Of a stretch of 64,000 nucleotides of DNA, positions 4,167-44,997 are shown piece by piece. The notes under the pieces were generated by a model. It was given only the letters and a program-made list of their open reading frames with translations, did no database searches and was not told the origin of the DNA. Positions within the stretch are counted from its first letter, which is position 1. The number at the start of each line of letters is the position of its first letter. A program made the position numbers and the translations under genes. The stretch is from Mactromeris polynyma (taxonomy: Eukaryota > Mollusca > Bivalvia > Venerida > Mactridae): assembly GCA_032209605.1 (NCBI GenBank), contig JASFXZ010000079.1, positions 248,001 through 312,000 of the forward strand, in the 5' to 3' direction.

Positions 4167-4708
4167 CGTCGCCTTACCACTTTCACGTTAGAAAACAATC
4201 CGTGCTGAATCAAACGAATCATGCGAAAAACAGACAATTCTGAGCACATAGTATTTGTAACGACTTAATCATTTCTACAGAAAGTGAATTAAATATTCCC
4301 ATCATAGCGTTTGTAAAAATTATAAACGCAGATATCCCATTTCTACAACGAGCGATTCTAAATTGCTATTACGTTTCAAATTTCTAATATACTTCAGTAA
4401 ATGACTTCATTTCTCCTATATAAGGAACACAATCGTGCTATATCTAAGGCGTGTTCAAAAATAGAAATTAGCCTAAGTGTGTAATAAGTGCTCACTAGTC
4501 ACGTGTATTTGATTTTCCTCATTTGAATTTCCCCAATCGACTTGCATCGTATATAAGCACTTAAACACTACAATGCAAGCAGTATATTTCCGGTTTGTTT
4601 TCAACAAAACGCATACACGATAATGCAATGATGATGAAAATGATGGTGATGTTGATTAATGGTGACAATGATATCAATTATAAGTTTTGCAACAGACGCC
4701 CGAGGAAA

Positions 4709-10975: not shown

Positions 10976-10985
10976 GTTTGGTTTT
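10797..10985 (-). CDS. NPF: NPF exon 2: short 5' UTR, signal peptide and most of the mature peptide
   Basis: The acceptor TTTTTTTGTTTCAG lies at 10986-10987 on the complement, and 10 bases of leader precede the ATG at 10975-10973. The donor is CCAAG|GTAATA, so the exon ends as GRP plus AG. Reading on gives an immediate stop (TAA), so splicing is needed to make the amidated C terminus. Confidence 0.92.
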
Positions 10986-11907
10986 CTGAAACAAAAAAAG
11001 AAGCTTATTGATAAATATAATACAATAATATGATAAATCTTCTGGAACTTTGAATATATTAAAATGCGACTCAGTACCGTAAAATAATGCAAAATTGGAC
11101 AGGTCACGAAGTTAATTATATTTGCCCAAATAAAAAGTAACGTAAAGTTTCTCATTAAATTTAATAATGTGCAATCGCATATTTGAAAATGTAGCGTAAA
11201 TTAGCACAATTAAAAGGTAACGTAAATTTGCATAGTTGAAAAAGTAACGTTATTCGGCCTAAACTCACTTTACTGACATGCATTAATGATCTCACTCACC
11301 AAGTATCGGCTTAGAATAAAGTGAAAAAAGAAAGGGTTCGAATCAAAGTTCGAGAACTATATGATAACATTAACATAACAGTTCAACTCGTACCTTTCCT
11401 ATGTTTTGCACTATCTGCAAAAGAGTGCGTGAAATTGTTTGAATGGAAAACATTTACACCGTTACCCTTTATAAACTCACCTCACGTTTTCAGTAATTTT
11501 ATTAGACAATGAGTTATGTGAGGTATGCATTGTTATTGAAATCTTTCAGAAAACAAGTTCACAAAGCGCCTCAAAACATGACTTATATAAGATGAGGAAC
11601 ATGTTTTGCAGAGAAATATTGCAAACAAAGGCATCAATACACTCTGATTGTAAACAAACCATATTGTGTCTAAATGTTAAGACGTAACAGAGATAATCAT
11701 ATGTATATTTTTATTACAATTCATCCACGTGATGTTTCAGTTTAAAACGCTTTTTCTCATTAGTATATCTCGTTATTTTCAAAATATCTTTGTAAACAAA
11801 CTACACGTATAAAGTGTGTGTGTATTTTCATCTGCATTGATAGTTTTAATGACCAAGCAGACATGTATATCACCCTTAAACAAATGATATAGTAAAATGA
11901 ATACCAT

Positions 11908-14660: not shown

Positions 14661-14851
14661 TTAAATTGCAGTATCATCAGAAGTTTCATTCGTCTTGCTC
14701 GTATTCTTCATTTTCGTGACTTTTGATTTAGTTTTCTTTGGTTGAATCTTCTTTCCATTTTTGATATCCCTGAATGCTTTTATAAGTGATGGCATATCTA
14801 GTATTACTACAGCAACTGCTACTGATACGATTACACCAACACCTACCGTAC
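14661..14851 (-). CDS. Multi-domain receptor, last exon: membrane span and basic cytoplasmic tail
   Basis: Entered in phase 1 after TATATATTACAG. It reads TVGVGVIVSVAVAVVIL, a single transmembrane helix, then DMPSLIKAFRDIKNG and a Lys-rich tail ending SDDTAI and TAA at 14661-14663. No kinase, ITAM or other signalling domain is visible. The Lys/Thr-rich tail has many potential phosphorylation sites. Confidence 0.88.
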
Positions 14852-17800
14852 CTGTAATATATAGGAAGGAAATATGCAGGAATGGTTAAGTTGGTACAGG
14901 GAACACTACATTCGCATGACAATGGGGCTGGGTTGTATCAGAGGGTGTGTACATTGGCATTGGGATGGGAACTGAGAGGAAAAGGTACCCATCATGTTTA
15001 TAGAATTGCAATATTTAGTTAATACATCCTTAAAATTCACATGTAAAAAGTTCCTAGCAAATGTATCCGAACTTTCTAGTAAATTTATTACTAGACCTAT
15101 CGTCGCTCTGTTTCAGAAGATATTCGACATGTAATTAACTTACTAATTGTTCTCGTTTGCTTTTGAAACTTACCGATAGCAACTGATGATTTGCGGTCAT
15201 CTTTAGCAGAATTATATTTACGGAAATGCGAAGAAGTGGATTCAGCGTCAAGGTATAAATCCTTCAGTATGTCAGCTAGTATTTCTTCTTCTGTGAGATT
15301 ACCATAAATCCCGGAATTACAAAAGCAGGGTGAAATGTATATGGGTTCAATTGTCGTAAAAGGTGTGAAATTGGTCGGAAATATGGATGTTGATGATACA
15401 GTTGTAGATGTAGTTGTTATACATATCGAAGGATATGAAGTGATGTCTGTAGGATCCGTCAGGTTCGTTTTCGCGGAGGTATCTGAAAATATAGAGGCAA
15501 ATTTATGTTCCTCTTGATAAACAAGAATATAGCGGACAAACACGAAATGTCACATACACAGCGCGAAGCCATCTCTAAATAACTTGGAAATATAAAAACA
15601 TATGTGCATATGAAAATTAATTCACAACGACGTGATTTTTATTGTGACGTCATCTATCTTGTGACATCACCATTTTGCTACCAATATCCTTGTGCCAAAC
15701 GCGAATTGATACCTGTATATTGTTCAATATATGCTTATTACTTAATCAGTAGATGTATGAACCTTACCGTTCAAACAATACCTCCACATAAACGTTTCAG
15801 AATTCGTTGACTGATCAAAACAATCACACTGGTGATATTCACATTTGTTTCCCGAATAGGTCACACCGCGACAACCGAAAGTATCCAAACATCGCTCATA
15901 GCATACTTCCGGATTTGAAACCCACTGTTCCGTCATAGTTTCAAACACAGCACATGTACCAATACCTTGTACAGTATACATCTCATACACGGGACAATCT
16001 GAAAGGAATCGATTTAGAAGTGTAGCACATGGATTCCTGGATTCACAATACAGAGGTGGACAACCCAGGACCGGACAAAGGGTTTAAAATGTAACAAAAC
16101 AAGAAGGAAATGATAACAAGAGGGGCAAGAGTGTTTATGATCGCCGACTTCCAATCACTTGCGCCTCACCGCGGATGTATCGAATATCATCCGGGATGTA
16201 TACATTGTATGTGAAGACTTGCGGAAGATCGCTGCTTCTACCCTGGTGTCGGTATATGACCAGGTCCCAGAGGTCTTCCTCCACCATAGTAGCTTGATAA
16301 GTCACTACATGACTCTAGCTGTTTATGTGACTTAAAACTCAGTAATAAAAAATGATAATGGGTGAACTAAAACTGCGGAAGATATGGGAGATGGTAAACA
16401 ATATAACTAAACAAAGGGAGGAAATATGAAATGAAATTAAAATGAAGGTGAATTTGGAACAAACGAACAGTTTATAAACGTCACATTACAGGTAGCTGCA
16501 TAACATAATCTGAAGATTACCTTTCAATGAATGAAAGTTTTGCTCCGTCATTGGTTGTCTCTCTAGAACATGTAATGCATTCAAAGTGTCACCGAACTTT
16601 ACAAAAAGAAATCATAGGCCCACACTGTGCGCATTATCAATTTCCAGGTGGTTTTCTATGCTGACAGGATATATTACATATCGGTAAGAATTGGACAGTA
16701 GCAATAGTATTGTCCTTACTGCTAAGACATATAGTAGTAAATATGCCTTTACTTCCTCTATAACTAACAACCGGATGCTATTGTTGTATTAAGTAGTCAA
16801 AGAATATAGTGGGATGATGACAATTACCACCATTTTAATTTATTTCCTACAGTTTTGAATAATATATGTATAACAGTTTATTCTATGTTATACTGCACAT
16901 AACGTTGCTTCAATTTACTAAACCTACCGGTATCGCACGATTTTCTGTAGAAAGTTGAGTCATATTGTTGCTGTACCCTCCCACACTGAAACTCGGAACA
17001 GACGGACGAACTTATGTTATACAACAATCCTTCGCAGTTTGTGTCAATGTTACAATCTGTCAAACAGTTGAGTTCAGTGTCTGAATTAATGTCTGACGCT
17101 GGTTGGCAAATAGTTCCTTCTTTGCAATTCAAACACGTTTGTGTTGTGTGTGACACGCATTCTGAATTGATACAGAATAATGATCTGACTAAAGATAACA
17201 ACATCAAAAATTGGAATGACATTGCAACATCACAAGAGTATACAACTGAGAGCAAAATCTTATGTATAACCGTATGTTTAACTTTGCTTCTGGCCCGAGT
17301 TCTGTCAACGAGAAACTGGAGGGTGGGTGAACCTTTTAACAATATACTAACCCCCTGTGGTGTTTTGCCACTGACCATTCAAAGGCGGAACTTATATTTT
17401 CACCCATTTCTTATGTCTGGTGTTCTCTTTGACACTATAATTGTTTGCATATATGTACATATATATTTGTTCATGTCTCCTTGTGCTTTACGGTGATTTT
17501 GTACTTTATATAGTCTATGACCCGGTTACCGGTGTATACTAGTGACCGGTGTAATCCAAATATCTATTACGTCATGTCATTTACATACTGGAAGTTTTTT
17601 ATGTGCGATCCATCAAAGTAACAACAATGAGCTCTGCTATGCTGCAGTAACAAAGCGGTGTTAGAGTAATAATCATCCCATCGAATTTAAAGACAATGTT
17701 TACAACAGGACATTTTTCTAGAGGAGATGTCCCTAAATGCACCGCTTACTGGTAACAAAATGGCGTCCAATTTTATTTTTGTTCATGTTAAATCGAGTCA

Positions 17801-20800
17801 AATAGCACATGTTTGGTGGAATTTGCAGCTGTTTTGTTGGTTGCGTGATGTGTTTGGAATGAAAATCTATCAAATACAATGAATTAAGCAGTTGAAAAAT
17901 GTTACCGCTTACACGGTCAGGGAGTATATGTGCCATTTCCCCTTTAGATAAACGTCTTAATTGAATAAATTTCTTACTTGTAAACCATTAAATGATGATT
18001 CAAATCGATGTACCTGCTTTGTACTATATGACGTTGCGTCGCAAGAAACGAAACAGCAAAGTAGTTTGTAACACAATATAATTCGGGCAGACACTATTTG
18101 TAGACGAGAACACATGACGTTTGTTCTCTTCTGTGATCGCTATAGGATCAAATCAACCAAATAAGTTTAAACTTTTTATTTAACATCGATTGTTAAACAA
18201 GTTCTTACAGCTTACAAAATATTACTCTCGATGCTTTCTTCCTGGGTAACCAACTAGTACTTGCTAGTACAAAAGTGGTTGTGATATTCGCGATCAAACT
18301 CCACCAGGTGGGGCTCGAACTCACGACCTGCGGATGAGCAGTCAGGCGCTGTACCCCTCGACCGCCACTCCCAACAGAATAAAATCTTATTTCATTAAAA
18401 GACTTTTTGTTATTTTCATATTGACGCATTGCTTAATCGAAAGTAGCCTATTTTAGCCTATCAAAATGAAAATAAACATTTATGTGACCCTTGTCAGAAA
18501 CTCTGACAAAAGACAAATGTGACAGAGAGAATTGTCTAATTTGTCGTACTAATAACGCGCAGGGAAATGACATACGGTTGCATAAAGTATACCGCCAAAA
18601 CCGGGATTTAGGACAGAAAGTATCACAAACAATAACATGTGCATTGGGTTCCTCTTGAAAAAGACAGTGTGCAGTTATATGTCTTATTTTGTACAGCAAA
18701 ATAGAAAAAAAACATAATTCCATCGGCAAGGATGCATATTCTTTTCAAATATGCACATTTATTTCATGGATATGCAAGACTACTTCAAGAAGATGTCTGA
18801 CAAAGCAAGAAATGAACGTCATACCATTAATACAATTCTTGAAGATGAGGAAGTTTGTGTTGCTGTCTGAAACCAAACTGTCAGTGCAGTTATAGTAAGT
18901 ACAAACGTCTTGTCCAATACAAAGGCCTACTGCCTTGCAGTACGGGTCATCTAGACATTGACCTATACACTCAGAGCTCGGCCTAAATCCTACATCAGTT
19001 TGATACGGTGAGCAGGCTGGAGCCTTTGTTGTCAACGCAGTCATATAAATATTTAAGCATTCTGAAATCAAACATCCGATCATTTTGAATGTGTACATCA
19101 TTATGTTGGGATTTTTACGCGGTCGTTCAACAGTAATTTGTTCGGTTCGGCGGTCATCTGATCTAGCCCTTGTTGCAGGATTCCAAATCAACTGATCAAA
19201 CATCCGGAAGTACGCATAAAAGTAAGTTTACAAAAAGAATATGTCCGCAATAATGAGTACCATTTTGTCAAAAACCTGTAGCATAGTTTGAAAACACTAA
19301 CTATAATTTAACCGATTATTCCGAGTTGTGCTTGTCGAGTGCTGAACTCGAAACTGTTCTAAATGCATATAACTACAGAAGACGATGCGAGAGTTTCGCA
19401 TGCATGCTCGATATATCGTGTAGTAATACTAATATCGAATGTTTCAAACATTATACTCGAAATTAATCAATCTGTCATAAGATGATGAGTTCCAATGCTT
19501 AAGACAACATTTTAAAAAACAAAGGGACTGGAGTGTACACTATCTGGTCTTCATCAGGATGTTCAACAAATCAATTTCCCGGTATCAAGGAGTCGAAAAT
19601 ATGCAAATTGTACAAACTGGAATTTCATTGGTTTGAATAGCAGAATAACGTCATCGATAAAAGCAAAACGTAACGGCATGCGCATTATAATCTAATGACT
19701 GTATAGCTAAATAGTACCTGGGTTGGTTGTCCGCCGGAAGACCGTGTTCCCCTCTCCATTAGGGGCTGGTCTGTCACATTCATACTGGCGACATTTTCTG
19801 TCACTTGAACTGTAGATAATGACGTTACAATCCACACAAGAAGTGTCACAGTCACTCGCTGCATCAATGTCATTTTCTATTGCCATGACTGGATATATTT
19901 TGCCTGTATCCCAAGATTCGCCACAATCTGAACGACCGTCTTTTATAACCTGTGTGTACATTTTGACTGGATCGTATTCTGTACAAAAATATAAAAACAA
20001 TAAATAGTTCCCACATCTACAATATTTACCCTTTATTCTGAATTGTCGGGTCATATTGATAGAAAAATGTCCTTAATGTTTATGGGGAATATAATGTAAA
20101 CGATGATAAATTAATCAGATTTAAAAATATAACTTATTAATTATGCACATGTCTATCAAAATGGCCGACAGTTAAGAAGAAGGGAGGTAAATATTGTAGA
20201 TGTGGGAACTATGTTTTTATGATATACGAATGCCTTTTTAATCTAATGTAATAACATGTTACATCGCACTTTATCCTAAAATTCTAAATTTTACAATTGG
20301 AAAATAGGATTCTGGTCAAAATTACTTCAGCGTTAGTTTCGGTAAGGTTTTGAAAACAAGTAAAACAGATTAACGATTAAATTGTGGTCCTTCATGTCGA
20401 ATAGCGCAGATGTAATCGGACAAGAAGTGGACAATATTGCAGTAAGAATTACCCCACATTGTTTCAATATTAGGGAAGCTCGGAAATATATTCTGGATTA
20501 GGTTCACTACCGCTACTAGTATTCAGGAAGTTATTAACAAGCTTATAAAAACCACAATCTGTAAGAATTTGCAATGTCGCAAAGAATAATGCTTAGGATA
20601 TGTTAGAACCAGATATAGACAATCTATGTAAAGTAAGCTAATGTCGTTTCTTTGTTTAGATCACACTGGGAAGGGTTTATCAACAAACCTGTTATTGTCA
20701 TGCACACACGCATCACAAATGTTGTGGACATTGTTGCATTTTGATAATCCGCGCATGAGTGATATTCACAACTTTCCGCATATGTACTATACGAGATTGC

Positions 20801-23800
20801 TCTGAAAAGTTTAATTATTGTTTCTTAAGTATTTACATTCTGAGGGATGCTAGCCTTGTGTGCATTGTTTAACACAAACATAGGGTATTGTATAACTAGC
20901 ATTTAATAAAGTAAGATAATTTTTGCTAATGTTTCATGTCTTTTCAAAGACCATTTGATATTCATAAGTATAAGGTTACGACACTTCAGATGGATATACA
21001 AGGCTTCAAAACTCAAATCACATTTTTCATCTCACCTTGGTTATGGTACGATTTTGAAATTGGTCACACAATATTCTCATGCAACATAGCTAATCTTAAT
21101 ATTAACATAAACATACAAAATATAACTTCTATCGAAATACATTGAAAATGAAAAATAACTTTAAGCATATATTCTGATATAAAAATGATCGTCCTGGCAC
21201 ATACAGAGATACAATGCCTAAAAGTCTCATTACTTTGGATGCAGACGGGTTAAGTAAACTTCACCGTACCTACAATTGTCCATGTCTAGGCATCTATTCA
21301 CACAGTAATCTGCTGTTACCCCGAAATCAAAATCAAGTGTCGGACACGATCCATGTTTGTCTGTCAAAGTCAGTAGACGATATATCGGACAATCTGAAAA
21401 ATAACACTATCATACATGTATAATTAGTTAAATAAAGTATACAGATAGACGAAATGCATTATATATTATTTTATTACAGTACCTAAAACGGTACAAGACA
21501 TATCTTCCGTAGATTTTGATTGTTGTAAGCTAGAAAATGTATGATTCTAAAGAATTGCACGTCCGCCAGTAGATTCGATGTCAAAAACACGTACATTGTT
21601 TCAGATCACTTTGTCATTAAGTATTGGAGTTGCTCAAAATTCAAAATAGCGGTTCGGTTCTTTGTTCAGCATGTAACCACTAACCACCTCTTAAGTCGGT
21701 TTGTTGCCGTACTGTAATAGCTGTCAAAGAAGGCTATATAATCAGTTGCTGTTTTAAGACTGTTGATTTCAGGACTGTTGTATTTAATATATTGTAATAG
21801 GTCAACGGATTGTCAGATTTTCAGAAAGCTGTGCCATAAAATCAAGTTTTGCAATGACCATTGACCCTTATTTTTAAAACATTCTATTCATTGTTGAAAC
21901 AATAACATTTTAGAATGAGTATTTTCGTTCCATTTATGAACAGAGGTACAACCTAATACGAGATTGGTAAGTGAAATGATCAGCTTTCACTAGACTTTGA
22001 TTGAATCCAGGATAATAACGGATACTTATACCCAAAACTCAAATCACAAATAAATATCTTTTAAATCTGATAGTGACTCATAGTGAGTGTAAAATAGATT
22101 GTAATTTTGAATGAGTGCTGGATATACTTTCAGGTCCATTTTCTTACAGATTTCAATGTAAAAATAGCTAAGGGAATATTTTTAAGTCTGAGTGTGGAGT
22201 GTGGCATTAAAACCAAATAATTACTCCAATATCTCATAAGCACATATACGTCGCAAAGAACACAGAACAAACACCCATTAGAAATTAAAGAAAAATTATT
22301 ACAGTATATATAAAACACGAAACTACCGTTACTAGTTGAACGCCGAAACATCACGCTATTCATTGCAATATAATCTTGCATGATCCAATGACAATCCATG
22401 TATAAGCAAAATCTCAGATCGTAGTCATAGTAATAGGTGTAGTTGTTCATATCGGAGTTAAACATAGCCTGGCATTCCCCGCTAGTTTTGAATGTTTCGT
22501 AGTGAGCATACCACTGGCAGTACTGCGATTGTCTGCAGTCCACGCAGATCTGATCGTTTGTACGCAGTGGCTCTGAAATTACAGCAAAATACGCATTTAT
22601 TAATGGAAGTTTTACACAAAAACATATTTCCCCCCAAAACTGACTCTTTGAGACAGAATCTCATCGTAGGACATTGAACCGAAACTGTTATGTATAACGT
22701 TTCATAATGATAGTCATTTGAACTACAATTATATCTGAACATTAGTCCATGCTTTTTTATGCATGAGCAGCCAAAGCGACATACGTTAGGTTTAAGGGCA
22801 AGCATAATTAGATAATAAATTAGTCGAAGGACGAGACAACTATATATACAGCCAAGCCTGACAGCTCTCACTACTACACAGAATTAGAAGAATGCGGTCT
22901 ACGTTGGCAAATGGTCTCAGAAATAGTTTTCGAACCATTTATTATTCAAAATTAGTTTAAACTTTAAACTTATTAATAGTTCGATTTTGTTTTCGAACTT
23001 AAGTTATTAATCACCTTTGATGACTCTTTCCTCAGTTGATAGACACTAGATCTACTCTCGCTCAATTAGTGATTGTGAAGATCACTGTTTAATCTCGTCC
23101 ACGACGAGATTTGTACTCAGCTTTACAAAGTTTTTGATTGTTAAATTTACAGACTGTACATACTGTAGATAATGTTTGTCTTTCTTATGTTATGGGTCGG
23201 CAAAACTTAAATTCTGACTCTGACACCTACCAAAGGAGCCACGTGCAAAACTTTACAAAACTTCTCGTCTGATTAAGTAACTGACTGATAAACATTAATT
23301 GGTATCAAAGTACGGTTTTGCGGAAACATTAATTACTATTAATTATTAATATTTCATTACTCGAATAAATACATAAGCCTCACCGTTATCAAGACATCTT
23401 TTATAAACGAATGTTGGATTATCAGTGTAAGAAATGGCATAATTAGAACAGTTGTGGTATTCACAGAAGCCGCCAGACGCGTAGTAAGTTGTCGCCCTAC
23501 AACCTGGCATATCCAAACATCGAGCTGTGCATTGTTCCAACATCACCAGTTCGCCCCTATCTTCCCCGATGACGTCGCACGTACCAGCATAATCGGTAGA
23601 GGTAAATATCTCGTACTTTGTGCAATCTGAAAAACAATTGACGAGGAAGTCGAGCAAGTAATGTAACATTTCAAAGTAATCAGTCACTCCAAAACCACAC
23701 GAAGACATGCAATATATATGAGCGCTGCTGTACGATTTCCAACCTCTTCTTTAAGTGTTATTTCCAGAAAACGTCACATGTGACCTCACTGACAGTAAGC

Positions 23801-35800: not shown

Positions 35801-38800
35801 AATCTAACCAATAAATCGCCGATCTACAGTAATCGTTGTCAAGACAACTGGCCAAACATTCCTGGTAACTCCAGATACCATTATACGACTCTGTTGCACC
35901 TGCAGCTGTGTAGTTGTACCTTTTATGTAGTGAATACACTGGGCAAGCTTAAAATAAAATCAACACATATATAATAATATCATCGGAATAAAGGTACGAG
36001 GCCTGTATGGAAATTATTGAGACACTGTCATTTAGTTACAAGTTTCGGAACGTTTTCGTTCTTTGGTACAAGCATGCAGGAACCCACCATAAGTCAAACG
36101 AACTAAGAAATAGTAAGGATTGTTAGTTATGTAGACATCCACTTCCAACAAACTCAAACAGCTCCTCGTGTAATTTGTACTATATTTACAGAATAATGTC
36201 CATGGCTGTAGACATGAATACAAACATATTCTTGGTATTGAATATAAACTGGACTGGAGAGTACAAGAAAACTAAACACTTTACCTGCGCTACACGAACG
36301 CCGAAATGCTTTTGAAGGAACATTGTATTCCACTTTCGAGCATTCGGACAAGGCGCATGTTTCATTCGTGAAGTTGAAAACTGCTAGATTACAGCTGTCG
36401 TTGTTGGCACAGGCTGTATTACAGTTAGTACTGCTTACCACACCAGTGAGTTCTTGGAAGGATTGTTGACATCCATTTCCATTTGCACAATTAATGCAAG
36501 TTTGAACTGTGGTATTACATGCTGAAATAATAATCATTATTGTCATATTGTTTCGGAGTTTTTGCCACCGGTTTTCAACATAACCTTAGTTTTGTTTTGC
36601 GTTCATGACTATACCAGGAGGTCTTAGATAACAAACCAGTATTAACCATTCTCCTTCAAGCAACTGACAACTTCCGCATATGGATGGGATGTAGATGTAT
36701 TTAGATCTTTGATTAAACCTACGACATCCACATTGGCATTGTAGTGTTCTACCGATTGAGATAACTTGGTGGGCCACATTTTGATAAAAGATGTATTGCA
36801 TTTCACTTTTCAGTAGATATTGATGTTTTATTGAATATCAAATTACGAGAATAAACAGAAATAGACCTACGCAATTACAAAACCTATTATGTTAAAAGAA
36901 CAATCAATAAATATTTTCTTTAAGTAAGGTGATCGCCATATTCACATGCAATGCCTTCCCACACGGATCCCAGGAAACATCAGTGCACATGACACCAGCA
37001 GTTGAGGAGGTGTAATGGATACTAATATAAATATGTAAGTCGAAATATCAAACATTCGGTGAATATGATCTCAATGATTGTTTTCATTCCACATTCGAAA
37101 ATGATTCCTATATGAGCACAATAAAAATACAGGGTAATTTTACACGCCTGGAATTTCTTCAATAGTTCAGTGAAGACTGAGTCTTATTTATTCTACATCA
37201 ATTTGAAACCAGTAATAACAAGTTTATTACTATCAATGACTACCTCGTGGTTTACCAACCAGTACTAGGGCGTAATTTAGAAATTGATGAGGTAGCGGTT
37301 TATATCATCCAAGTTGGGAATCCAATTCAGAACTTTCGGATCGAGAGTAAGGCGCTCGACCATTAAGCCAACAATACTAACTTGTACATCTAGAGTAAAA
37401 CTATACCTTGCTCACACTCCCGCCATATGAACATATGATTGGACAAAGTAACATTTATCTCGTGATTGTCACAACTGTGATATAAACACAGAACACCGGT
37501 CGGCTCCGAACTGTACGAGACGGCAGTGCAGTTATCCATGTCCAAACATCTATGGACACAATAGTCCATTTCTACATCTCCGAAATCTTCGCCAATCATC
37601 GGACACGTTCCTTTAGATAACCCTTTGCTCTGTAGCCGAAATACCGGGCAATCTTTTTTAAAAATGAAAAATGTATTTTAAATACACGAAATAAACTTTT
37701 GCGCAGTACTTTACAATTTATCATTTCTACATTATATGAATTTATGATTAAAGCAAATATTTCAAATGTTAAAAAATATTTCATACTCGAGAGCCTATTA
37801 ATACAAATATTCCATATATTAAAGCATATTGATACAAATATTCCATATATTAAAGCATATTGATACAAATATTCCATATATTAAAGCATATTAATACAAA
37901 TATTCCATATATTAAAGCATATTGATACAAATATTCCATATATTAAAGCATATTAATACAAATATTCCATATATTAAAGCATATTGATACAAATATTCCA
38001 TATATTAAAGCATATTAATACAAATATTCCATATATTAAAGCATATTGATTCAAATATTCCATATATTAAAGCATATTTGAATACATATATCAACTCGAA
38101 ACTTTGCATAAATAACATGCGTTCATTATTTTACCATTTGTTGGTGGAGGGGTAAACAAATTTTAATATGTTCCTCTGCACGTTTCGTGTTATTTACGCG
38201 TGAAATTTTTCAGTTTTAAACATGATTAGCAAACTTGTACTTTCTGGACTGCATTTTATTTTGTACGGAACTGTGTATGTACCGGTCAAAAGTGCAAATC
38301 CGCCACTTAGACAAACTAATCTCTATTTAATTTTCATTGTTTCTATCAAGCTACTGGATAGATCATTAATTTGTTGATTTTTATTGCTGTAAACTGTAGT
38401 AACAGTTATATTTATGATTTAAATTATAATTGTCGATATCATTTCTGTCAAAATCATGTTCATTGGTTGAAATCACTTGTCAAAATTTGGTGAAGATTCT
38501 CAATATACAGAATGACGGGTTAGCTCTTTTGGTAAGTTTCTGTTTACCTGCTTTGCATGTCTTTCTGAATACCGTGTTTGTAGAATGAGTATTGAGATTA
38601 AAGTCCATATTATAATGAGAGTAAGACAACCGGGGACACTGGTATAGGCTACACTGACTTGATGAAGGCTCGTACACAGCCGTTTCACAATTATCGTCCG
38701 CCGAGCAGGCATCATTGCATTCAGTCGTTAAATATACACTGAATGCACTGTAACTGTTCTGACAAACGGAGGACTGGTCACAGTTTAAGCAGGTCTGTGT

Positions 38801-41800
38801 GATAGCAACACAGTCTGAAAACAAAGGTGACCGACTTGAATATAAGATTTCTGAACAGTTATGGCAACCCAACTATTTAGGTTTGTTGTTTTGTCCTTGG
38901 ACATTTACAATGCATTATATGCTGTGTTGCATTGCTCTGAAAAGTTAAATTGAAAATAAAGAAATCGAGCAAAAAAATACAAAGAACACAGTTATCCCAA
39001 AGACACAAAGAGGCATGACATATCAACATGTATGCACATACTGAACAGTTAAAATCATTAATGAAAATGAGAATTTATAAAGGAAAAGTTTATGCAACAC
39101 AGTCCACGCTTCATTGTCCTATACTATATTGCATTACTGTATTTGTATGAAGAAAGAAAGTTACAGCTATTATATAAAAGTTCTGTATCTCATACCATCA
39201 TGACATATTCGTTTGTAGAAAACTGCCATTGCATTTGCTGTAGTACCTTGACCACTATGTAACATGCAATTTGATGAAAAATGCGTTATTGCAAGACAAC
39301 CTGCCGTCTCCAAACAACGTTCGAGGCAAAGTGGTTCGCTCAGGGAAAACATTTCTATTATATTAGAGCTCGCCGTTAAACCTGATCTTCCCGAAATTCG
39401 AATAAGTTGATAATTGGGACAATCTGCAAGAAAAAGAACGTCAGTGCAGTCGTGGAATACACAGAATGGATGAGAAGGATAGAGATTGTTTGGTTTGTGC
39501 ATGCCAATAATGCTACAAAATGCTACTCGATATCATACGGTTGGCTACCTATTTGAGAAAGAATAAAACTATTGCAACAGAACCATTTTTATGAGAATGT
39601 ACGTTTAAGAGTTTATACATTCGTCTAACTTTTTCTTGTTTAAATATTAAAAAGCAGCATAATATTATGTTATATGTTTTCAGATGTTTTATTTGTTAGT
39701 TCAACCCATCCGAATTTCATTTCATTTCTTAGTTTGGCATTTACGTGTTTCTAAACTCAGAAATTATTCTAATAAATGTCGCAAGCATAACAATTATATG
39801 TCATTATTAATTTGTACTGTATATTATGAGATGTCTGCCCTGGGTCTACATGTTTTACGAGTTAAGTAAACGTATCGAAAAAGGTTACCCGTATTATATG
39901 TTCTCCTGAATGCAATAGAGGCGTTTGTGGCGTCGTAGCTGACTTGGTTGCAGAAATGGAAACTGCATTCTTCATTACCTCTGTTATACACGTACATACC
40001 ACAGTCATCATATGCCGAACACTCTGCTGAACATGTGTCATGTGACGTGACTCCAGTTTTTACATACATAGGCTCAGTGCATTTTGATCCAGCTAGGCAG
40101 TTATGACAGGTTTGGACTACCGGTGGCGGGGCTGAAAAACACCAGAAGTGTTCCAGATTTACATGATAGTCATTTCCAGCTTGCATGCTAGTTAATTATC
40201 ATTCACCATGGTAATTTCAAATTATTATTATTCCCCAGCGACATTTTTGTAGGACTGTCATTGTTCCAAATGTTTGCATATCGACGATATTAATTTATCG
40301 AAAGACAAATATTGACTTTATACGATAGACTCCTATTAAATCCTATTTTTCTGTATATTTGTATGTGTATGCACCACATATTTAAAATATCAATTATTAT
40401 TGATAATAATTTACAATTTAAGTCGTTACGCCAAATTTTAACTTCACCGTATTATATTATATCGCCGACATTTTGAAACCACTAATAGAGAACTGTTTAA
40501 CAAGCGGCCGACTACAACACGACGTTACATGTTTGGCACATTTGTTTTTACTGTACTCATTTATCTGTATTTTCACGCCTTAATGTCGATAGTTGTGTTT
40601 TTCGAATACCGATCGACAGAAAACATCGTTCATATATTGATATCGATTGTACCGATGCCAGCTCTAATGTTCTGTTGCGTTTGTCCAAGAATACGAGAGT
40701 CCTTTGAAAAGAGTCCCAATATACCAACCGAAGGTAAATTACTTTCTTGTTTGTACAAGCCAAATAATTATGAAGGTCCGTCTTTTGGAACAGCCGACGG
40801 AAAACGACGGGAAGCGTTAAATCAAGATAGCTTACGTGTCCTGCATTCTTTTATCCATGCCTCGAAGCCTGAAGAGGAAGATTGTGTTGTGCAGCTAAAT
40901 AAAACACACGTCGTTGTACTGTAATTGATCACTGCCGCTCTACAGCCGACCATGTCCATACAATGAGCGAAACAGTTAGTATCAGTTGAAGCAGCTGGGA
41001 CAGTTTGCATTACACACGTACTGTCAATATCTGTATCGCCATAAGACGTGACCTCAAATACGGGGCAATCTGTAAAGTAATTTAGCGGAAACAGACACAT
41101 TTAACAACAGAAACGAGCTAATCAGACTAAAACATGTCACGATTTACCACATTTATTACAATATGTAAATTACGACCGAATTAACGAGCAAAGCATATCA
41201 AATGTATACGTGGCTGTTACTTGTGATACAAATTACACAAAAATACAATAAAAGTGGCCGCGTCCTATGTGTTACAAGTATTCAGGTGATTAGTTTGGTT
41301 TATCGGGTTTAACACCCTAGTCCAAGATTGTTTAAAGTAATACATGGTGGTCAGTTGACTTTAGCATTCTGGCAAATTTTCTACATGAAACAGAGGTGGA
41401 GCACAAATGACCGTAACCAAATGTCACGACATGGCATAGACACGTAGTTTTCGTACGTAAACGTTAGCCAATTAAAAATGTACAGCTGGATCGTACCTTG
41501 GTCTGAGGCATACTGACAAAAGTGGATAAACACGTCACTTAATCATCAGTACTTACGTTTCCATTGTAAAAGTATTTAAAATTTATATGAGAGATAGATC
41601 TACATCGAATACGACAAAACATCCATATCAACCTTCTCTAAAGAACAAATTACTTTCACAATGAGATAAATGTTTACGCAGTTGATAGAATATTTGCAAA
41701 TATTTTGTATTTTAAATACTCGACTCTTCTGCTATATATTTGGTACTGTGGAAACGATATTTTCTACTTCACACGTAGACATAATTAAAGTTTTTTTATT

Positions 41801-44289
41801 GACTTTGGTCCAGCTCTTGTGTTGGAATGTAACCACACAATTTTGATGCAATTTGAAGCACATACTGACTTTAAAATCGACTTGTATTTTGTTATGATTA
41901 GGTAAAGATATTTGTGTTACAAATATGTCGGCTCTACTCTGCCTTCGTTTACTCTGGCCGCCCACACAGATCCGAGAAAAGTATCAGCATACGAAACTTT
42001 GGGAGTTGAAAATGTGTAAGGGTATACCTCTGTGTGTGAATGCGGGAAGGAAGTAAGACATTGTCTGACATATTATCATAAACAACCAATCAGTGGTTCA
42101 ACAGGGGGGTGGGCGAAGAGATGGAATAGTGGGAATGCATTATATGACAATCCAATAAAGCAAGTCGGTTTCGGACAGTAAGGGGTAGCGAGTATCAGCT
42201 TTGGAACTGTCAGTAAACATACTAATTGCCCTATGTCGAATATGTTCACTCAAGAAATCTTCGGAATTGGTTGTAACGATCAGTTACATTTCTAATGACG
42301 ATAAATCAGAGTGATTATAAAAATTGATGCTCTTCCGTGCAGTTATGTTCAATGTTTTATCGCACAAAACATTTTAGACTGAAACTCAGACATTGGCTTT
42401 AAAATGTTTAGTGTTCTTTTGGCTCCAATGTTATAATAACTAAATAGAGTTTAATACAAATTGGCCAAAGTGTAAAGCAATTAATCAGACAAACTTTCAT
42501 TTGTTAAGTTTTAATGAAAAAGAAATATCGGATAATAATTATTTTGTAAATTTAAAGTCCATGTCTGAGTTTCAGTCTTAAAATGATTGTGAATAAGGTC
42601 CCTGGGTGAGTAGGTACTCAGAATTATCTTCTTTTATAGATTGTTTAAAATATACAATGTAATTGTCAATTTAGACACCTGCTAAGTACACATCGTCGCA
42701 AAATACAATTTCACATGAGTGTGGGTCATATATAAAATAGTATTCTGCGACAATATATATATATGATTTATAAACACTATGTTACCAGAATGGCATGCTC
42801 GCCGGTAAACGACTCCTCCATAGTCTATATCTATTTCATTATTACCAACACAACCAAACACATTGCACTCCTGGTACGCTCCCGAGTAAAGTGCCGCGTG
42901 ACATAAATTGTTCTCCTCACACTTGGCTTTGCACTGACTTCCGTTTACCACGTCTGTCTGGCTTTCTAATACTGTCGGGCAACTGGATGCGACTCGAGCA
43001 CAGTTTAAGCATGTTTGTATGGTAGAACTGACGCCACAAGCACCTAGTGCTAACAAGGAAAAAAGAATCATTAGTGTTGAAACATTATTACAACATCAAT
43101 ACAAGTTATGTAAATACAGTGCAAACTCTCCAAACTCTGCAGACCAGTGCTGTTTGGAGTAACATCCTCTCTTAAACATCATTATTATTAAATCTAGCAT
43201 TGTAAAATGTACAAAAAAACATAAGCCTCTCAAGAGCAATAATATCCTATAACACATGACTCTAGAAATCCACTAGCCCGACGTCCCGGACAAGTCTATT
43301 TGTTTATTGGGGCTACTAACAATCTGAGTTGAACTTAGTTCAGGGCAAGTCTGTTTTAAAGTCAATAGATGACACCCACGTCACATAATAGTCGTTAACA
43401 CCACGGTATGCAGGGTGTCGGTCCAGTTAGATCATGGTTACATATATTATGCAGTGTTGATCCTGACCAATTTCGTAATAATGAATGGCCTTGATTTTGT
43501 TCTCGGACAACTGGCTTCCCATGTTGGATAAGTCAAATTTAATACGTTTTCCTGTCCGGGACCAGTATATTTGAGAACATTTCTAGAGCTCTGAACAGCA
43601 AAAAATGCATCTCCCAATGTGTAGTACTCTGGAGAGTTTTCACTGCACATAAGTATGGTCTTAAATATATACATATGTATTGTTTTCAAAACTTGCGGCG
43701 TATCCATGAATCATGTATAAATATCGAGATGTGCTGTCTACGGAGACATGTTCAATCTTTTCTTTAGCTTCTTACAAGGAAATATTCTTTCGATATGTCT
43801 GTAAAGTGTATCTTTTTATAAGGAATTTCAATTCAACTTCATTCGATCGGAAGATATTTACATGTACATGTAAATATTTTTTGAGTCCATGGTGCAAGAC
43901 CATACTTAATAAAGTGTGTATTCGTTACTCCGATCGTACCCGACGATATTGGTCCCGCCTCATAGTGTTTACATAGTCCGAATAGGATTTTTCGTGACTT
44001 TCGTAACATGCAGAAAAAATCTATAAACATATTTCACCTATAAATAATAAACCTATAATATATTCCATTTATATTCCAGAAAGCATTTATATAAAACGGT
44101 GTTTTGTATTGAAAGAAATGATTTCATTAAAGATGGGTATATTTTGACACAATAGTTGTACATGCTTAGAACAAATTTCGTCCATATGAAAAACTTCTTA
44201 ATATTTTTTTATGATTTACCTTCGGTTTGGTCAATTTGATTGAAAAGCCCGCTTGCGCAGACAAGCAAAACCAACTTCTTGACCAACAT
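14661..44289 (-). CDS. Giant type I membrane protein with 22 alternating Cys-rich apple/PAN-like domains (11 B-A pairs)
   Basis: The model has 31 coding exons and about 1968 residues: a 24-residue signal exon, 22 domains of about 76-89 residues, a 103-residue Ser/Thr-rich stalk, one membrane span and a basic tail of about 45 residues. Two subtypes alternate without exception. Subtype A starts (D/E)CPxYE and ends with (K/R)xCxxG. Subtype B starts with xQTCxNC and ends FR(R/K)SCxxG. Both share the core C-x3-C-x5-C...Y...C-x3/4-C. The C-x3-C-x5-C...Y pattern and the pairing of first and last Cys resemble apple/PAN domains, an inference from pattern. All domain boundaries are phase 1, and every domain length divides by three. 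Six domains carry an extra internal intron. Predicted location is the cell surface. Ligand and function are unknown; recognition of carbohydrate or microbes is only a guess from the fold. Confidence 0.88.
15174..15482 (-). CDS. Multi-domain receptor: Ser/Thr-rich stalk and juxtamembrane module
   Basis: 103 codons, phase 1 to phase 1. The first half is Thr/Ser/Pro-rich (ITTTSTTVSSTSIFPTNFT), suggesting O-glycosylation. Then comes a CFCNSG motif, LTEEEILADILKDLYLD, and a juxtamembrane motif ESTSSHFRKYNSAKDDRKSS leading into VAIG and the membrane helix. I recall similar 'SS..RK..SA.DDR.SS..IG' modules before the membrane span of other molluscan membrane proteins; this is from memory and unchecked. 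Confidence 0.85.
15768..15998 (-). CDS. Domain A11 (subtype A)
   Basis: 77 codons, one exon. It begins DCPVYEMY, has the core CYERCLDTFGCRGVTY and KCEYHQC, and ends FMWRYCLNG. It has the eight framework cysteines plus an extra Cys after the CEYHQC motif. The acceptor is CCTTTCAG and the donor G|GTAAGG. Confidence 0.9.
16125..16340 (+). mobile_element. SINE copy in intron between B11 and A11
   Basis: It contains GATCGCCGACTTCCAATCACTTGCGCC, a decayed B box, and a body with TCTACCCTGGTGTCGGTA and AGGTCTTCCTCCACCATAGTAGCTTGATAAGTC. It is the same family as the copies at 59185 and 28020. Confidence 0.65.
16928..17161 (-). CDS. Domain B11 (subtype B)
   Basis: 78 codons. It begins ECVSHTTQTCLNC, has CLTDCNIDTNC and LLYNISSSVCSEFQC, and ends FYRKSCDTG. 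This is the clearest full subtype-B domain with all ten cysteines. The donor is G|GTAGGT. A plus-strand open frame over the same bases is an antisense shadow. Confidence 0.9.
18200..18380 (-). mobile_element. tRNA-derived SINE, minus orientation
   Basis: On the minus strand it reads GGGAGTGGCGGTCGAGGGG (A-box region), then GAGTTCGAGCCCCACC (B box), followed by a body ending near CTTACAGC. The tRNA head is well preserved. Confidence 0.7.
18825..19061 (-). CDS. Domain A10 (subtype A)
   Basis: 79 codons. It begins ECLNIYMTALTT, has CIGQCLDDPYCKAVG and CTYYNC, and ends FLIFKNCING. The usual CPxYE entry is diverged, but the cysteine framework is kept. The acceptor is TTTGATTTCAG and the donor G|GTATGA. 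Confidence 0.88.
19718..19978 (-). CDS. Domain B10 (subtype B, lacks first and last cysteines)
   Basis: 87 codons. It is the most diverged B domain. The entry EYDPVKMYTQVIKD has lost the first Cys and the QTCxNC motif, and the end VFRRTTNPG has lost the last Cys. The core CDTSCVDCNVIIYSSSDRKC and RQYEC remain. Confidence 0.85.
20004..20212. mobile_element. Palindromic-end MITE, copy 1 (about 209 bp)
   Basis: Inverted ends ATAGTTCCCACATCTACAAT and ATTGTAGATGTGGGAACTAT flank an AT-rich interior containing GGAATATAATGTAAACGATGATAAA. Flanking TA suggests a TA target. It lies next to domain B10. Confidence 0.85.
20689..20801 (-). CDS. Domain A9, second half
   Basis: 113 bases entered in phase 2 after TTAAACTTTTCAG. 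It reads AISYSTYAESCEYHSC, the C-terminal core, and ends FVMRVCMTITG. It joins 21270 in frame to make a 79-codon domain. The donor is CAG|GTTTG. Confidence 0.85.
21270..21393 (-). CDS. Domain A9, first half
   Basis: 124 bases, phase 1 to phase 2. It begins DCPIYRLLTLTDKHG, has CVNRCLDMDNC, and ends in AG of an Arg codon at a TGTAG|GTACGG donor. The internal intron (20802-21269) falls one residue after the third core cysteine. Confidence 0.85.
22327..22572 (-). CDS. Domain B9 (subtype B, lacks first and last cysteines)
   Basis: 82 codons. The entry EPLRTNDQICVDC lacks the first Cys, and the end VMFRRSTSNG lacks the last. The middle (CQWYAHYETFKTSGEC) is rearranged and RFCLYMDC is kept. The donor is G|GTAGTT. 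Confidence 0.85.
23384..23626 (-). CDS. Domain A8 (subtype A)
   Basis: 81 codons. It begins DCTKYEIFTSTDYAGTCDV, has CTARCLDMPGCRATTY and FCEYHNC, and ends FVYKRCLDNG. A textbook subtype-A domain. The donor is G|GTGAGG. Confidence 0.92.
24411..24527 (-). CDS. Domain B8, second half
   Basis: 117 bases entered in phase 1 after CTTTTCAG. It reads DIDNTMMSYNRTGAECKLFQC and ends HRNSCNAG before G|GTATGT. With 25118-25237 it forms a 79-codon domain. Confidence 0.82.
24895..25140. repeat. Tandem duplication (about 122 bp) across the domain B8 internal donor
   Basis: Two copies share GAT(T/A)TCATGCT(G/A)TTG(A/C)AGATAAT, GGTCACTC, TTGAATGTTTGCGGGTC and TAGTTCCA. The right copy ends in the coding 3' part of domain B8 with its donor. 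The left copy lies within the intron and holds a decayed copy of the same exon end. Confidence 0.72.
25118..25237 (-). CDS. Domain B8, first half
   Basis: 120 bases. It begins DCTSPVIQECVGC, passes SLESVCENMELN, and ends at G|GTAAACC (phase 1). A second in-frame GT (GTGAGT at 25157) could act as an alternative donor but would break the domain frame. The donor lies in a tandem duplication (24895-25140). Confidence 0.8.
26413..26486 (-). CDS. Domain A7, second half
   Basis: 74 bases entered in phase 2 after GGTTATAG. It reads CIFHDCDNYIVASGYDFTRK, then RCIEG, to a G|GTAGGT donor. It completes a 79-codon domain with 27495-27657. Confidence 0.82.
26832..27101. mobile_element. Palindromic-end MITE, copy 2 (about 270 bp)
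   Basis: Ends ATAGTTCCAACATTTACCTCCC and GGGAGGTAAATATTGTAAATG...AGCTAT. The interior shares GGAATATAATGTAAACGATGATAAA with copy 1 and GCTCATGTGGGCAGTTG...GGTTGTCACATGCAAATT with copy 3. It sits in the intron that splits domain A7. Confidence 0.82.
27495..27657 (-). CDS. Domain A7, first half
   Basis: 163 bases, phase 1 to phase 2. It begins DCLQYELFELLGYRGTCN, has CLSKCLDMDQCKGVSV, and ends at AATGAG|GTAAAT, just before the C-terminal core. The plain reading would stop at the donor TAA. Confidence 0.85.
28020..28180 (-). mobile_element. tRNA-derived SINE, minus orientation
   Basis: On the minus strand CTAAGTCGCTGACTTCAAAACCC is followed by a B-box-like CGATTCGAATCCCACCAGGG and a body related to 59185-59410 (compare the reverse of GTAGGCTCCCAGATAG with CAGGTACCCATCTAAG). 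It is intronic. Confidence 0.68.
28502..28602 (-). CDS. Domain B7, second half
   Basis: 101 bases entered in phase 2 after a pyrimidine-rich ATCTTCTTATAACAG. It reads YSVINMQHYHLNCPYV and ends VYRKSCSSG before G|GTAAGTG. The open frame continues upstream of the acceptor, but the phase and the partner exon at 29400 fix the boundary. Confidence 0.8.
29400..29550 (-). CDS. Domain B7, first half
   Basis: 151 bases, phase 1 to phase 2. It begins DCVLPYTQTCFNCKPATNC and ends DDDVKQI plus TG at ATATG|GTAAGTT. The central C-x3-C-x5-C motif of the other domains is missing. The joined domain has 84 codons. Confidence 0.82.
30013..30126 (-). CDS. Domain A6, second half
   Basis: 114 bases entered in phase 1 after TTTCATTACAG. 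It reads MTHVVNKSVAICYLHNTTC and ends YIIKDCLIG at G|GTAAGC. Joined to 31165 it gives an 81-codon domain. Confidence 0.82.
31165..31293 (-). CDS. Domain A6, first half
   Basis: 129 bases, phase 1 to phase 1. It begins DCTQYELYQNTGYAGDCDV, has CMEKCLDTPGCRG, and ends at AGAG|GTAAGT, directly after the core. Confidence 0.86.
31404..31612. mobile_element. Palindromic-end MITE, copy 3, reversed and one end deleted
   Basis: It begins with GTAGTTCCTACATCTACAATATTTACC and then runs in the reverse sense of copy 2, ending near GCCCACATGAGCATTATGAATAAGTTA. The second inverted end is missing. Confidence 0.75.
31733..31960 (-). CDS. Domain B6 (subtype B, lacks first and last cysteines)
   Basis: 76 codons. 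The entry GSEIQTCQNC lacks the first Cys, and the end FRKTNNAG lacks the last. The core CRASCEASMDC, SVYNISGGRC and LLYQC are intact. The donor is G|GTAACC. Confidence 0.9.
32350..32505. mobile_element. 156-bp MITE with CAGGGC ends and 5-bp direct repeats
   Basis: The ends are CAGGGCTGTAAATTACATGGAGGC and (reverse) CAGGGCCGTAAATTGCCTCCCC. ACGAT directly repeats on both sides (32345-32349 and 32506-32510). The interior includes a purine/pyrimidine-rich CGCTTCGCTCCGCTCGGCGGGG block. Intronic, non-coding; family not assigned. Confidence 0.82.
32610..32867 (-). CDS. Domain A5 (subtype A)
   Basis: 86 codons. It begins ECPDIAVETLGGFYGNCDN, has CLEHCLDTSSCRGVNY and LCYYLTGDC, and ends YIKIDCINTTG. 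The last inter-cysteine loop is longer than usual. The donor is G|GTATGA. Confidence 0.9.
33261..33343 (-). CDS. Domain B5, second half
   Basis: 83 bases entered in phase 2 after TTATTATCTTACAG. It reads CDYYDCGGVQTAY and ends VARKSCING at G|GTAATG. It completes an 82-codon domain with 35081-35243. Confidence 0.8.
33344..35080. other. Intron splitting domain B5
   Basis: A 1.7-kb intron inside a domain of about 80 residues. It holds a 14-base C run at 33479-33492, a repeat fragment at about 33560-33660 with a counterpart at 28950-29050 (ACCCGG(G/A)GG(A/T)CTGT...GGCATT(A/G)TCTTATG), and AT-rich sequence. No other exon was seen. Confidence 0.6.
35081..35243 (-). CDS. Domain B5, first half
   Basis: 163 bases, phase 1 to phase 2. 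It begins with GC then CDKIYTQTCRRSMPASYC, continues INLIQDCFLSLYW, and ends PSS plus AG at AGCAG|GTAATG. The second Cys of QTCxNC is replaced by Arg-Ser. Confidence 0.8.
35714..35947 (-). CDS. Domain A4 (subtype A)
   Basis: 78 codons. It begins CPVYSLHKRYNY, has CLASCLDNDYCRSAIY and LCLHQN, and ends FFERDCSSG. The Cys after CLHQ is lost. The donor is G|GTATGT. Confidence 0.9.
36285..36521 (-). CDS. Domain B4 (subtype B)
   Basis: 79 codons. It begins ACNTTVQTCINC, has CNTACANNDSCNLAVFN and TCALSEC, and ends AFRRSCSAG. All framework cysteines are present. The donor is G|GTAAAG. Confidence 0.92.
37230..37380 (-). mobile_element. Diverged tRNA-derived SINE, minus orientation
   Basis: On the minus strand TTGGCTTAATGGTCGAGCGCC resembles an A-box region, and GAATTGGATTCCC a weak B box. 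Degenerate. Confidence 0.5.
37407..37652 (-). CDS. Domain A3 (subtype A)
   Basis: 82 codons. It begins DCPVFRLQSKGLSKGTC, has CVHRCLDMDNCTAVSY and CLYHSC, and ends FIWRECEQG. The donor is G|GTATAG. The acceptor lies just after a run of minisatellite-rich intron. Confidence 0.9.
37797..38085. repeat. 31-bp AT-rich minisatellite, about 9 copies
   Basis: The unit is ATACAAATATTCCATATATTAAAGCATATT plus one base (G or A), with starts about 31 bp apart from 37801. That base alternates G and A in most successive copies, giving a 62-bp dimer pattern. It is in the intron between domains B3 and A3. Confidence 0.92.
38548..38814 (-). CDS. Domain B3 (subtype B)
   Basis: 89 codons, the longest domain. 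It begins DCVAITQTCLNC, has CNDACSADDNCETAVY and QCSLYQC, and ends VFRKTCKAG. The extra length is in the last loop. The donor is G|GTAAAC. Confidence 0.92.
39196..39423 (-). CDS. Domain A2 (subtype A)
   Basis: 76 codons. It begins DCPNYQLIRISGRSG, has CLERCLETAGCLAITHF and NCMLHS, and ends FYKRICHDG. The second Cys and the one after MLHS are missing. The donor is G|GTATGA. Confidence 0.9.
39889..40131 (-). CDS. Domain B2 (subtype B, lacks first and last cysteines)
   Basis: 81 codons. The entry APPPVVQTCHNC lacks the first Cys, and the end AFRRTYNTG has Tyr in place of the last Cys. CSAECSAYDDCGMYVYN and ECSFHFC are intact. Confidence 0.9.
40529..40924 (+). other. Unassigned plus-strand open frame, antisense to domain A1
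   Basis: 131 codons with two hydrophobic segments (FGTFVFTVLIYLYFHALMSI and IVHILISIVPMPALMFCC) and an internal donor-like ACCGAAG|GTAAAT at about 40733. The frame stays open upstream of the Met. It could be an exon of a nested plus-strand gene or a retrocopy fragment, or only a chance frame. No family recognised. Confidence 0.2.
40836..41069 (-). CDS. Domain A1 (subtype A)
   Basis: 78 codons. It begins DCPVFEVTSYG, has CFAHCMDMVGCRAAV and CVLFSC, and ends WIKECRT with the donor C|GTAAGC. The usual Gly at the boundary is replaced, but phase 1 is kept. A plus-strand open frame overlaps this exon. Confidence 0.88.
41290..41480 (-). mobile_element. SINE 3' part, minus orientation
   Basis: It starts GGTTTAACACCCTAGTCCAAGATTGTTTAAAGTAATACATGGTGGTCAGTTGAC, the reverse of the common molluscan SINE tail (…GTTAAACC). 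A parallel copy lies at 52805. Confidence 0.6.
42786..43043 (-). CDS. Domain B1 (subtype B), first domain after the signal peptide
   Basis: 86 codons. It begins ACGVSSTIQTCLNC, has CKAKCEENNLCHAALY and ECNVFGC, and ends VYRRACHSG. It joins the signal exon directly in phase 1 (QTE-Gly-Ala-Cys). The donor is G|GTAACA. Confidence 0.88.
43250..43370. repeat. Inverted repeat arm, left (pairs with 44998-45118)
   Basis: CTCTAGAAATCCACTAGCCCGACGTCCCGGACAAGTCTATTTG recurs in reverse complement at 45070-45113, and similarity continues through CAGTTCACTT/GAACTTAGTTCAGGGCAAGTCTGTTTTAAA. The arms flank the signal-peptide exon and the orphan B fragment. Confidence 0.8.
43447..43628 (-). other. Unrecognised open frame in the first intron of the multi-domain gene
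   Basis: After CTCCAG a frame of about 58 codons reads YYTLGDAFFAVQSSRNVL, then TYPTWEASCPRTKSRPFII, and stops. It enters in phase 1 but has no usable donor before the stop. It has no A or B cysteine framework, so it does not belong to the array. It may be a pseudo-exon, an alternative terminal exon or a transposon fragment. Confidence 0.25.
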
Positions 44290-44580: not shown

Positions 44581-44681
44581 TTATGAGAGGTCTTTGCATT
44601 CATGTGGCACTGAGTTGCAATCTGCACCATTAAAGAGCAGACTGCAGTTCAAACACGTCTGTAGGATGCAATTACACGTAA
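44581..44681 (-). pseudogene. Orphan subtype-B domain fragment upstream of the signal exon
   Basis: After TTTTATATCAG the frame reads VTCNCILQTCLNCSLLFNG, then ADCNSVPHECKDLS and a stop. The QTCLNC entry and phase-1 acceptor are typical of a B-domain first half, but there is no donor and no second half. It lies 5' of the signal exon. It is probably the relic of a longer ancestral array or of a neighbouring paralogue. Confidence 0.6.
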
Positions 44682-44997
44682 CTGATATAAAAGGAAGAGT
44701 GTGTTAGAGAAAACCTGCAAAACAACAATCACCGGGCTTTATTCTTAAAAGTAATGCGAAACAAAACAAAACAAGCTTGTTTCCTGACGAAACGAAATAC
44801 AGGAAAATATCCCGTACAAAGCGCACAGTCACTCAGAAGAGAAAGAAAACATGTAATGTCAACTGATATTCCCGGATTTGACATGTCCGACATGTGAGGC
44901 CAGTTGTCCGAGAAAATGTGTTCACAGTTTGAATTAATACGAATTTCAAAGCATCAGTAATGCATGATTTTCTTTCGGTAATTAGAAAGTCCAATGG

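Follow-up and report, generated by a model that had tools for sequence, protein, structure and literature searches.

Analysis of a 64,000-nucleotide stretch of the Mactromeris polynyma genome (contig JASFXZ010000079.1, positions 248,001–312,000, referred to here as the window) revealed what is probably one gene for a giant single-pass surface protein with 22 PAN/apple domains on a stalk, most likely an extended multivalent adhesion or recognition molecule. As a two-subtype, single-gene array of 22 domains fixed by position in two clams, it offers a clean case for studying the ligands of a long PAN array and the reasons for the retention of each domain.

Structure of the gene

The gene, which lies on the minus strand, was rebuilt from the DNA, with its ATG start codon at 44289 and the last base of its TAA stop codon at 14661; it had 31 exons, 30 GT-AG introns and 1968 encoded residues (Table 1). 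The predicted protein began with a signal peptide, followed by 22 domains that alternate strictly as 11 B-A pairs; next came a Thr/Ser stalk, and a single membrane span led into a short, basic tail. These totals were the same as those of the original prediction, which had proposed one gene of 31 exons and about 1968 residues from signal exon to basic tail; the proposed end points and totals (31 exons, 1968 aa) were known during the rebuild, which was carried out without a prior exon list. Profiles built from the clear domains were used to score the reading frames, and the splice sites picked were those that yielded the best domain; the exons for the signal peptide, stalk and membrane span were positioned by eye. 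The 1968-residue model contained no internal stop codon, which agreed with the claim that all joins are in frame. Every domain had also been described as a multiple of three bases, which was correct when the two exons of a split domain were counted together.

Table 1. Exons of the M. polynyma gene, from the 5′-end to the 3′-end of the coding sequence (positions are those of the window)
Feature	Position	Strand	Remarks
Signal-peptide exon	44220..44289	-	MLVKKLVLLVCASGLFNQIDQTE + 1 base; AG acceptor 2 bases 5′ of ATG; by eye at proposed end point; Mactra N-terminus similar
B1	42786..43043	-	alternative acceptor 43049
A1	40836..41069	-	profile + splice-site choice
B2	39889..40131	-	profile + splice-site choice
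A2	39196..39423	-	profile + splice-site choice
B3	38548..38814	-	profile + splice-site choice
A3	37407..37652	-	weak acceptor score
B4	36285..36521	-	weak acceptor score
A4	35714..35947	-	weak acceptor score
B5 first exon	35081..35243	-	profile + splice-site choice
B5 second exon	33261..33343	-	profile + splice-site choice
A5	32610..32867	-	profile + splice-site choice
B6	31733..31960	-	profile + splice-site choice
A6 first exon	31165..31293	-	weak acceptor score
A6 second exon	30013..30126	-	profile + splice-site choice
B7 first exon	29400..29550	-	profile + splice-site choice
B7 second exon	28502..28602	-	join backed by Mactra B7 sequence
A7 first exon	27495..27657	-	profile + splice-site choice
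A7 second exon	26413..26486	-	profile + splice-site choice
B8 first exon	25118..25237	-	weak acceptor score
B8 second exon	24411..24527	-	profile + splice-site choice
A8	23384..23626	-	profile + splice-site choice
B9	22327..22572	-	profile + splice-site choice
A9 first exon	21270..21393	-	profile + splice-site choice
A9 second exon	20689..20801	-	weak acceptor score
B10	19718..19978	-	QTCxNC pair lost, as in Mactra
A10	18825..19061	-	weak acceptor score
B11	16928..17161	-	third-ranked acceptor, frame-keeping; AlphaFold2 model pLDDT 72.5
A11	15768..15998	-	AlphaFold2 model pLDDT 88.3
Thr/Ser-rich stalk + juxtamembrane segment	15174..15482	-	by eye; ISPCxC...LTxEEI...TSxHFRKxNSxxDDR conserved in Mactra
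Membrane span, short basic tail, TAA stop	14661..14851	-	by eye; hydropathy 2.73 over 19 residues

The 24 introns that lie at the borders of domains, stalk and TM segment were without exception in phase 1. This pattern is partly dependent evidence because the splice sites were restricted to GT and AG and selected for fit, seven acceptors (A3, B4, A4, A10, A6a, B8a and A9b) scored below 0, and the third-ranked acceptor was used for B11 as both better-scoring ones broke the frame. Six domains (B5, A6, B7, A7, B8 and A9) were each encoded by two exons, with an internal intron in phase 1 or 2 between them. Introns ranged from 285 to 1737 bases in length (median 784), and the one between B3 and A3 contained a minisatellite (37792–38091; 9.6 copies of a 31-base unit, 94% matches).

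The motif C-x3-C-x5-C was present in 17 minus-strand reading-frame fragments of the span, which exceeds chance: 100 sequences shuffled within 200-base blocks had 0.38 such fragments on average and never more than 2. Among ORFs of at least 75 aa it was found in 15/35 on the minus strand and 1/13 on the plus strand.

Two further candidate exons were rejected. A third exon within B7 was judged unnecessary because the two-exon join had the right length and Mactra B7 had the same six cysteines; the prior total of 31 exons was also weighed. A B-like ‘QTCLNC’ reading upstream of the signal exon (44584–44703, minus strand), which was preceded by AG, was not among the matches of an enlarged B profile at i-E <0.5 and was therefore taken to be probably due to chance.

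The array consists of PAN/apple domains

The receptor had been called undescribed-looking; its domains are ordinary PAN/apple domains rather than a new type, and the fold is already known. When the predicted protein was compared with Pfam, PAN_1 (PF00024) matched the whole sequence with an E value of 6e-17 and 61.7 bits (curated cut-off 21.4), in 13 stretches at E <= 10. The Mactra antiquata protein described below scored 99.1 bits against PF00024, in 10 stretches at E <= 1. Taken alone, A11 scored 19.9 bits, below the cut-off of 21.4, and B11 had no match to PF00024 at E <= 0.1. Predicted structures of A11 and B11 matched PAN/apple structures in a fold search; single-domain structure prediction had been proposed as a check. 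The five-stranded sheet and one main helix of a PAN/apple domain were found, and the four core cysteines of its two hairpin disulfides were all present in 18/22 domains (A 11/11, B 7/11). The top PDB sequence-profile match was Toxoplasma MIC4 and the top fold match of the B model was Sarcocystis SML-2. In a whole-protein Pfam scan at E <= 10 the matches were confined to PAN_1, PAN_4 and, below the cut-off, VraX, with no serine-protease, ZP, VWD, EGF or collagen domain. Leave-one-out profiles placed all 22 domains in their stated A or B type, which upheld the strict B-A alternation. According to PMC9249922, PAN/apple domains are widespread and their role is incompletely understood; PMC7588048 records them in some Lottia genes and in four genes of Crassostrea gigas.

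An orthologous gene in Mactra antiquata

Mactra antiquata hypothetical protein ACF0H5_021862 (P0001; 1986 aa) showed 50% identity over 94% of the model and was the only match among ~5.8 billion proteins at E <= 0.001. A profile of both clam sequences found nothing further among ~5.8 billion proteins at E <= 10. ACF0H5_021862 is unnamed and is itself a prediction. The original prediction knew of no named protein with this architecture, and none was found here; the parts are known. No bivalve PAN array was found among the literature matches listed from open-licence papers on PAN proteins in molluscs.

ACF0H5_021862 has the 22 domains of the B-A array in the same order, the stalk and the membrane span. 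It differs in its longer Thr/Ser stalk, in a tail that is hardly alike, and in B5 and B11, which are ~25 residues short in the Mactra gene model. When the Mactra protein was cut into segments by alignment to the M. polynyma protein, each of the 22 domains scored best against its positional counterpart, above any other domain of its own gene. The two clams had 155/158 cysteines (row sum) in common in the 20 domains that were fully covered by Mactra, B5 and B11 being left out of this tally because their Mactra counterparts are ~25 residues short. The comparison of the predicted proteins showed one conserved gene with position-by-position orthology in the second clam.

Several poor splice-site scores, the choice of one site for its frame, and the cysteines lost in B5, B7, B8, B9 and B10 might be expected if exon prediction had strung together several short genes or a decaying array. 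That the predicted protein of another species has the same order, length and cysteine gaps, together with the uniform phase of the boundary introns and the open reading frame, speaks against such an artefact. Given the Mactra ortholog, the 22/22 positional best matches and the shared cysteines, separate short genes or a chance chain of exons are very unlikely.

Cysteine pattern and disulfides

The core C-x3-C-x5-C that both subtypes were said to share was present in most domains; its last two cysteines were absent in B5, B8 and B9 and all three were absent in B7. B domains have the apple core plus extra QTC and NC cysteines. This QTCxNC pair, predicted for B domains generally, was absent in B10, and B5 lacked its NC half. 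The same domains lacked the same cysteines in both clams.

Cysteines were often lost in pairs. Four B domains (B2, B6, B9 and B10) and no others jointly lacked the N- and C-terminal cysteines; this was tallied by eye because the N-terminal cysteine is offset in some rows by one or two columns. The chance of two sets of four among eleven coinciding exactly is 1 in 330, for pairs that were chosen after inspection. In A domains, the second cysteine and the cysteine after the YH motif were jointly absent in A2 and A4, and one was merely shifted in A1, A5 and A6. Core cysteines 2 and 3 were jointly absent in B5, B7, B8 and B9: seven rows lacked both and one row, Mactra B10, was an exception to paired loss in this alignment, lacking core cysteine 2 alone. 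B7 additionally lacked core cysteine 1 together with the next cysteine, so that both core pairs were gone, whereas B5, B8 and B9 were without one core pair.

The core disulfides of the HGF PAN domain join cysteine 1 with 4 and cysteine 2 with 3. The co-losses in the core point to this same order, Cys 1-4 and 2-3. The cysteines concerned are at positions 70, 74, 84 and 96 of HGF according to PMC9249922. PMC9024836 states that PAN/apple domains conserve the two helix bonds of the related Wsc1 domain, C49-C69 and C53-C71; numbered along the sequence these are 1-3 and 2-4, which differs from the order to which the co-losses point, so that both are candidates for the core order. The terminal pairing in B agrees with two bonds given for the apple domains of kallikrein in PMC6899681, Cys2-Cys85 and Cys182-Cys265. 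Paired cysteine loss provides a readable map of the disulfides that individual PAN domains can spare.

Origin of the array

In a tree built from 42 domains of the two clams, A and B lay on opposite sides of one branch (97/87 support, 98% of bootstraps). Mactra B5 and B11 were omitted as too short. Of the 20 positions with both rows, 18 formed a two-row fork and A7 and A9 were not resolved; with 81 usable columns for 42 rows, the deep order within A or B was also without resolution. The A and B clades and the two-row forks fit one ancestral B-A pair that would have multiplied before the two clams split. The original prediction, that the gene grew by duplicating a two-domain cassette, therefore agreed with the tree in its two clades, but growth cassette by cassette left no trace: A-A and B-B pairwise similarities were uncorrelated (Mantel r = 0.00, p = 0.49), so such growth is consistent with the data and not demonstrated by them. 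Nearby domains were no more alike than distant ones. Judged by eye, the introns inside the six split domains are at different sites or in different phases, those of A6 and A9 being near each other in different phases; later intron gains would account for this.

Giant repeat-bearing surface proteins, such as abalone VERL, are carried by mollusc eggs, and a role in gamete recognition or as a species barrier was considered for that reason. We regard it as highly improbable: under concerted evolution repeats are more alike within a species than between orthologs, and here the opposite was found, all 22 domains being closer to their Mactra counterpart. The positional identity of the domains in the two clams argues against concerted evolution and against an immune array that diversifies quickly; it speaks for a stable role in adhesion or docking. 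It is possible, and we suggest it tentatively, that the B-A pair is a true structural unit and the array an 11-segment rod in which each position has a fixed job; such a clam surface ruler or docking array might derive from an ancient apple-domain dimer whose domains are no longer exchangeable.

Comparison with known PAN/apple proteins

Like the clam protein, MIC4 and SML-2 have tandem apple domains of the same fold, which are their binding part. They come from unrelated organisms; the clam array was likened to them by fold and sequence profile. We know of no alternation of two apple subtypes in either protein. MIC4 has six apple domains and requires K469 for binding. As both of these multi-apple proteins bind galactose and head the PDB sequence and B-model fold matches, respectively, the clam protein could be an immune recognition lectin of blood cells or mucosal surfaces, with many PAN domains binding microbial glycans. 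The PAN/apple domain of a mollusc FREP, recorded in PMC7588048, would suit such a lectin, as would the number of other PAN matches in this genome (793 Mb, 299 contigs), which gave at least 120 PAN_1 matches at E <= 0.001 with 150 of 477 candidates scored. However, no second array was present in 220 kb of flanking contig, and the domains, 22/22 in register, showed none of the shuffling or turnover between the two clams that would mark a diversifying immune array. We consider an immune lectin improbable.

Plasma prekallikrein and coagulation factor XI have four tandem apple domains and a serine protease, with no membrane span, and in plasminogen and HGF a single N-terminal PAN domain is combined with kringles and with a protease (or protease-like) domain. 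The whole-protein Pfam scan at E <= 10 found no protease or protease-like domain after the PAN domains of the clam protein, which sets it apart from this family.

Eight other PAN loci of the same genome (L001–L008) also had PAN domains in open frames. By eye, each had a single PAN domain or two, in some cases next to sushi-like or coiled-coil parts, in contrast to the giant array. Their best i-E values were 3.6e-6 against the A profile and 7.9e-4 against the B profile, and none matched the tail profile at i-E <0.05. Several of the PAN_1 matches listed were clustered (contigs C232, C236, C245 and C278), and sushi-like neighbours were seen by eye at L002, L006 and L008. None of the listed matches was on C277, the contig of the giant gene (the window being C277:248001-312000), so a search with PAN_1 exon by exon misses this gene.

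Location and function

A hydrophobic start, judged by inspection, indicated a signal peptide, and hydropathy reached 2.73 at residue 1905 compared to no more than 1.14 in residues 41–1889. The protein therefore has, by hydropathy and inspection, the signal peptide and one span of a type I single-pass membrane protein, and the span is a probable anchor. It had been called a receptor; no signalling domain was found, and ‘receptor’ is accordingly a putative label. The tail had no Pfam domain, and it was inspected for motifs by eye. A signalling role of its own is unlikely because the tail is short and basic and the TM-plus-tail exon had 28% identity to Mactra over 47 aligned residues.

We infer from these features a surface location, a glycosylated stalk, a binding role and the absence of intrinsic signalling. 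The signal peptide and single span would place the array outside the cell, where the Thr/Ser stalk, probably O-glycosylated, would hold the ectodomain off the membrane. Individual PAN domains could then bind extracellular protein or glycan partners, such contacts having been suggested for PAN domains in PMC9249922. The short tail would serve as an anchor only, so any signalling would need partners.

The main rival to an adhesion or recognition molecule is a structural part of the apical glycocalyx, mucus layer or extracellular matrix, tethered or shed from its stalk, in which the array would act as a cross-linker or spacer and not as a receptor that reads ligands. The little-conserved tail without a recognised domain would suit this, as would domains kept in place without exchange, 30 N-glycosylation sequons (tail included) and the stalk exon segment, which is 103 residues long compared to 193 in Mactra, where it is more Thr/Ser-rich. 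A C. elegans apical-matrix paper (PMC4970718) mentions PAN domains 14 times. The Pfam scan, on the other hand, recovered none of the ZP, VWD, EGF or collagen domains, and the juxtamembrane segment, conserved in 31/55 columns, was better kept than the tail, which suggests that anchoring matters. A structural role is the less likely on balance, and an adhesion or recognition molecule is preferred.

Endings similar to this juxtamembrane segment (CxC...LTxEEI...TSxHFRKxNSxxDDR) are found on other bivalve surface proteins. A search for smaller relatives sharing the tail, made with the last 487 residues aligned to their Mactra counterpart, returned nothing at E <= 10 among 4236 candidates; candidates had to share 5-letter words and be of similar length, so that distant or differently sized relatives would escape, and the Mactra protein was itself too long to be one.

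Neighbouring sequence

A neuropeptide F/Y-type hormone gene was represented by its first coding exon at 10796–11200 (minus strand), which matched positions 1-34 of the 36-position Pfam profile Hormone_3 with an E value of 1.4e-11. The reading ends in ...MVGRPR, and a further exon would complete the peptide. A retroelement reverse transcriptase was found at 8833–10557 (minus strand; RVT_1 E 2.9e-31 in 9673–10557), with a stop codon before the remainder of the frame (8833–9669), which had no Pfam match. Exons of another modular surface-type gene, encoding TSP1, C2-set and I-set Ig, and fibronectin III domains, were present at 481–4187 (minus strand), and this gene may extend past the start of the window.

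Beyond the other end of the window, at least about 20 kb upstream of the giant gene, laminin-G and LNR/Notch exons were found on the plus strand (C277:312001-322000). This locus also encoded an HEFGHVFGLWH piece that had no Pfam match at E <= 0.01, and we take the gene, from its appearance, to be a putative pappalysin. A 29-base repeat (9.9 copies, 100% matches) occupied the window end (63714–64000), and a similar repeat was present in the first 520 bases of the adjoining laminin-G locus. Two minisatellites were also found within the window, at 51420–52512 (~21 copies of a 51-base unit, 92% matches) and at 55879–56559 (16 copies of a 42-base unit, 97%).
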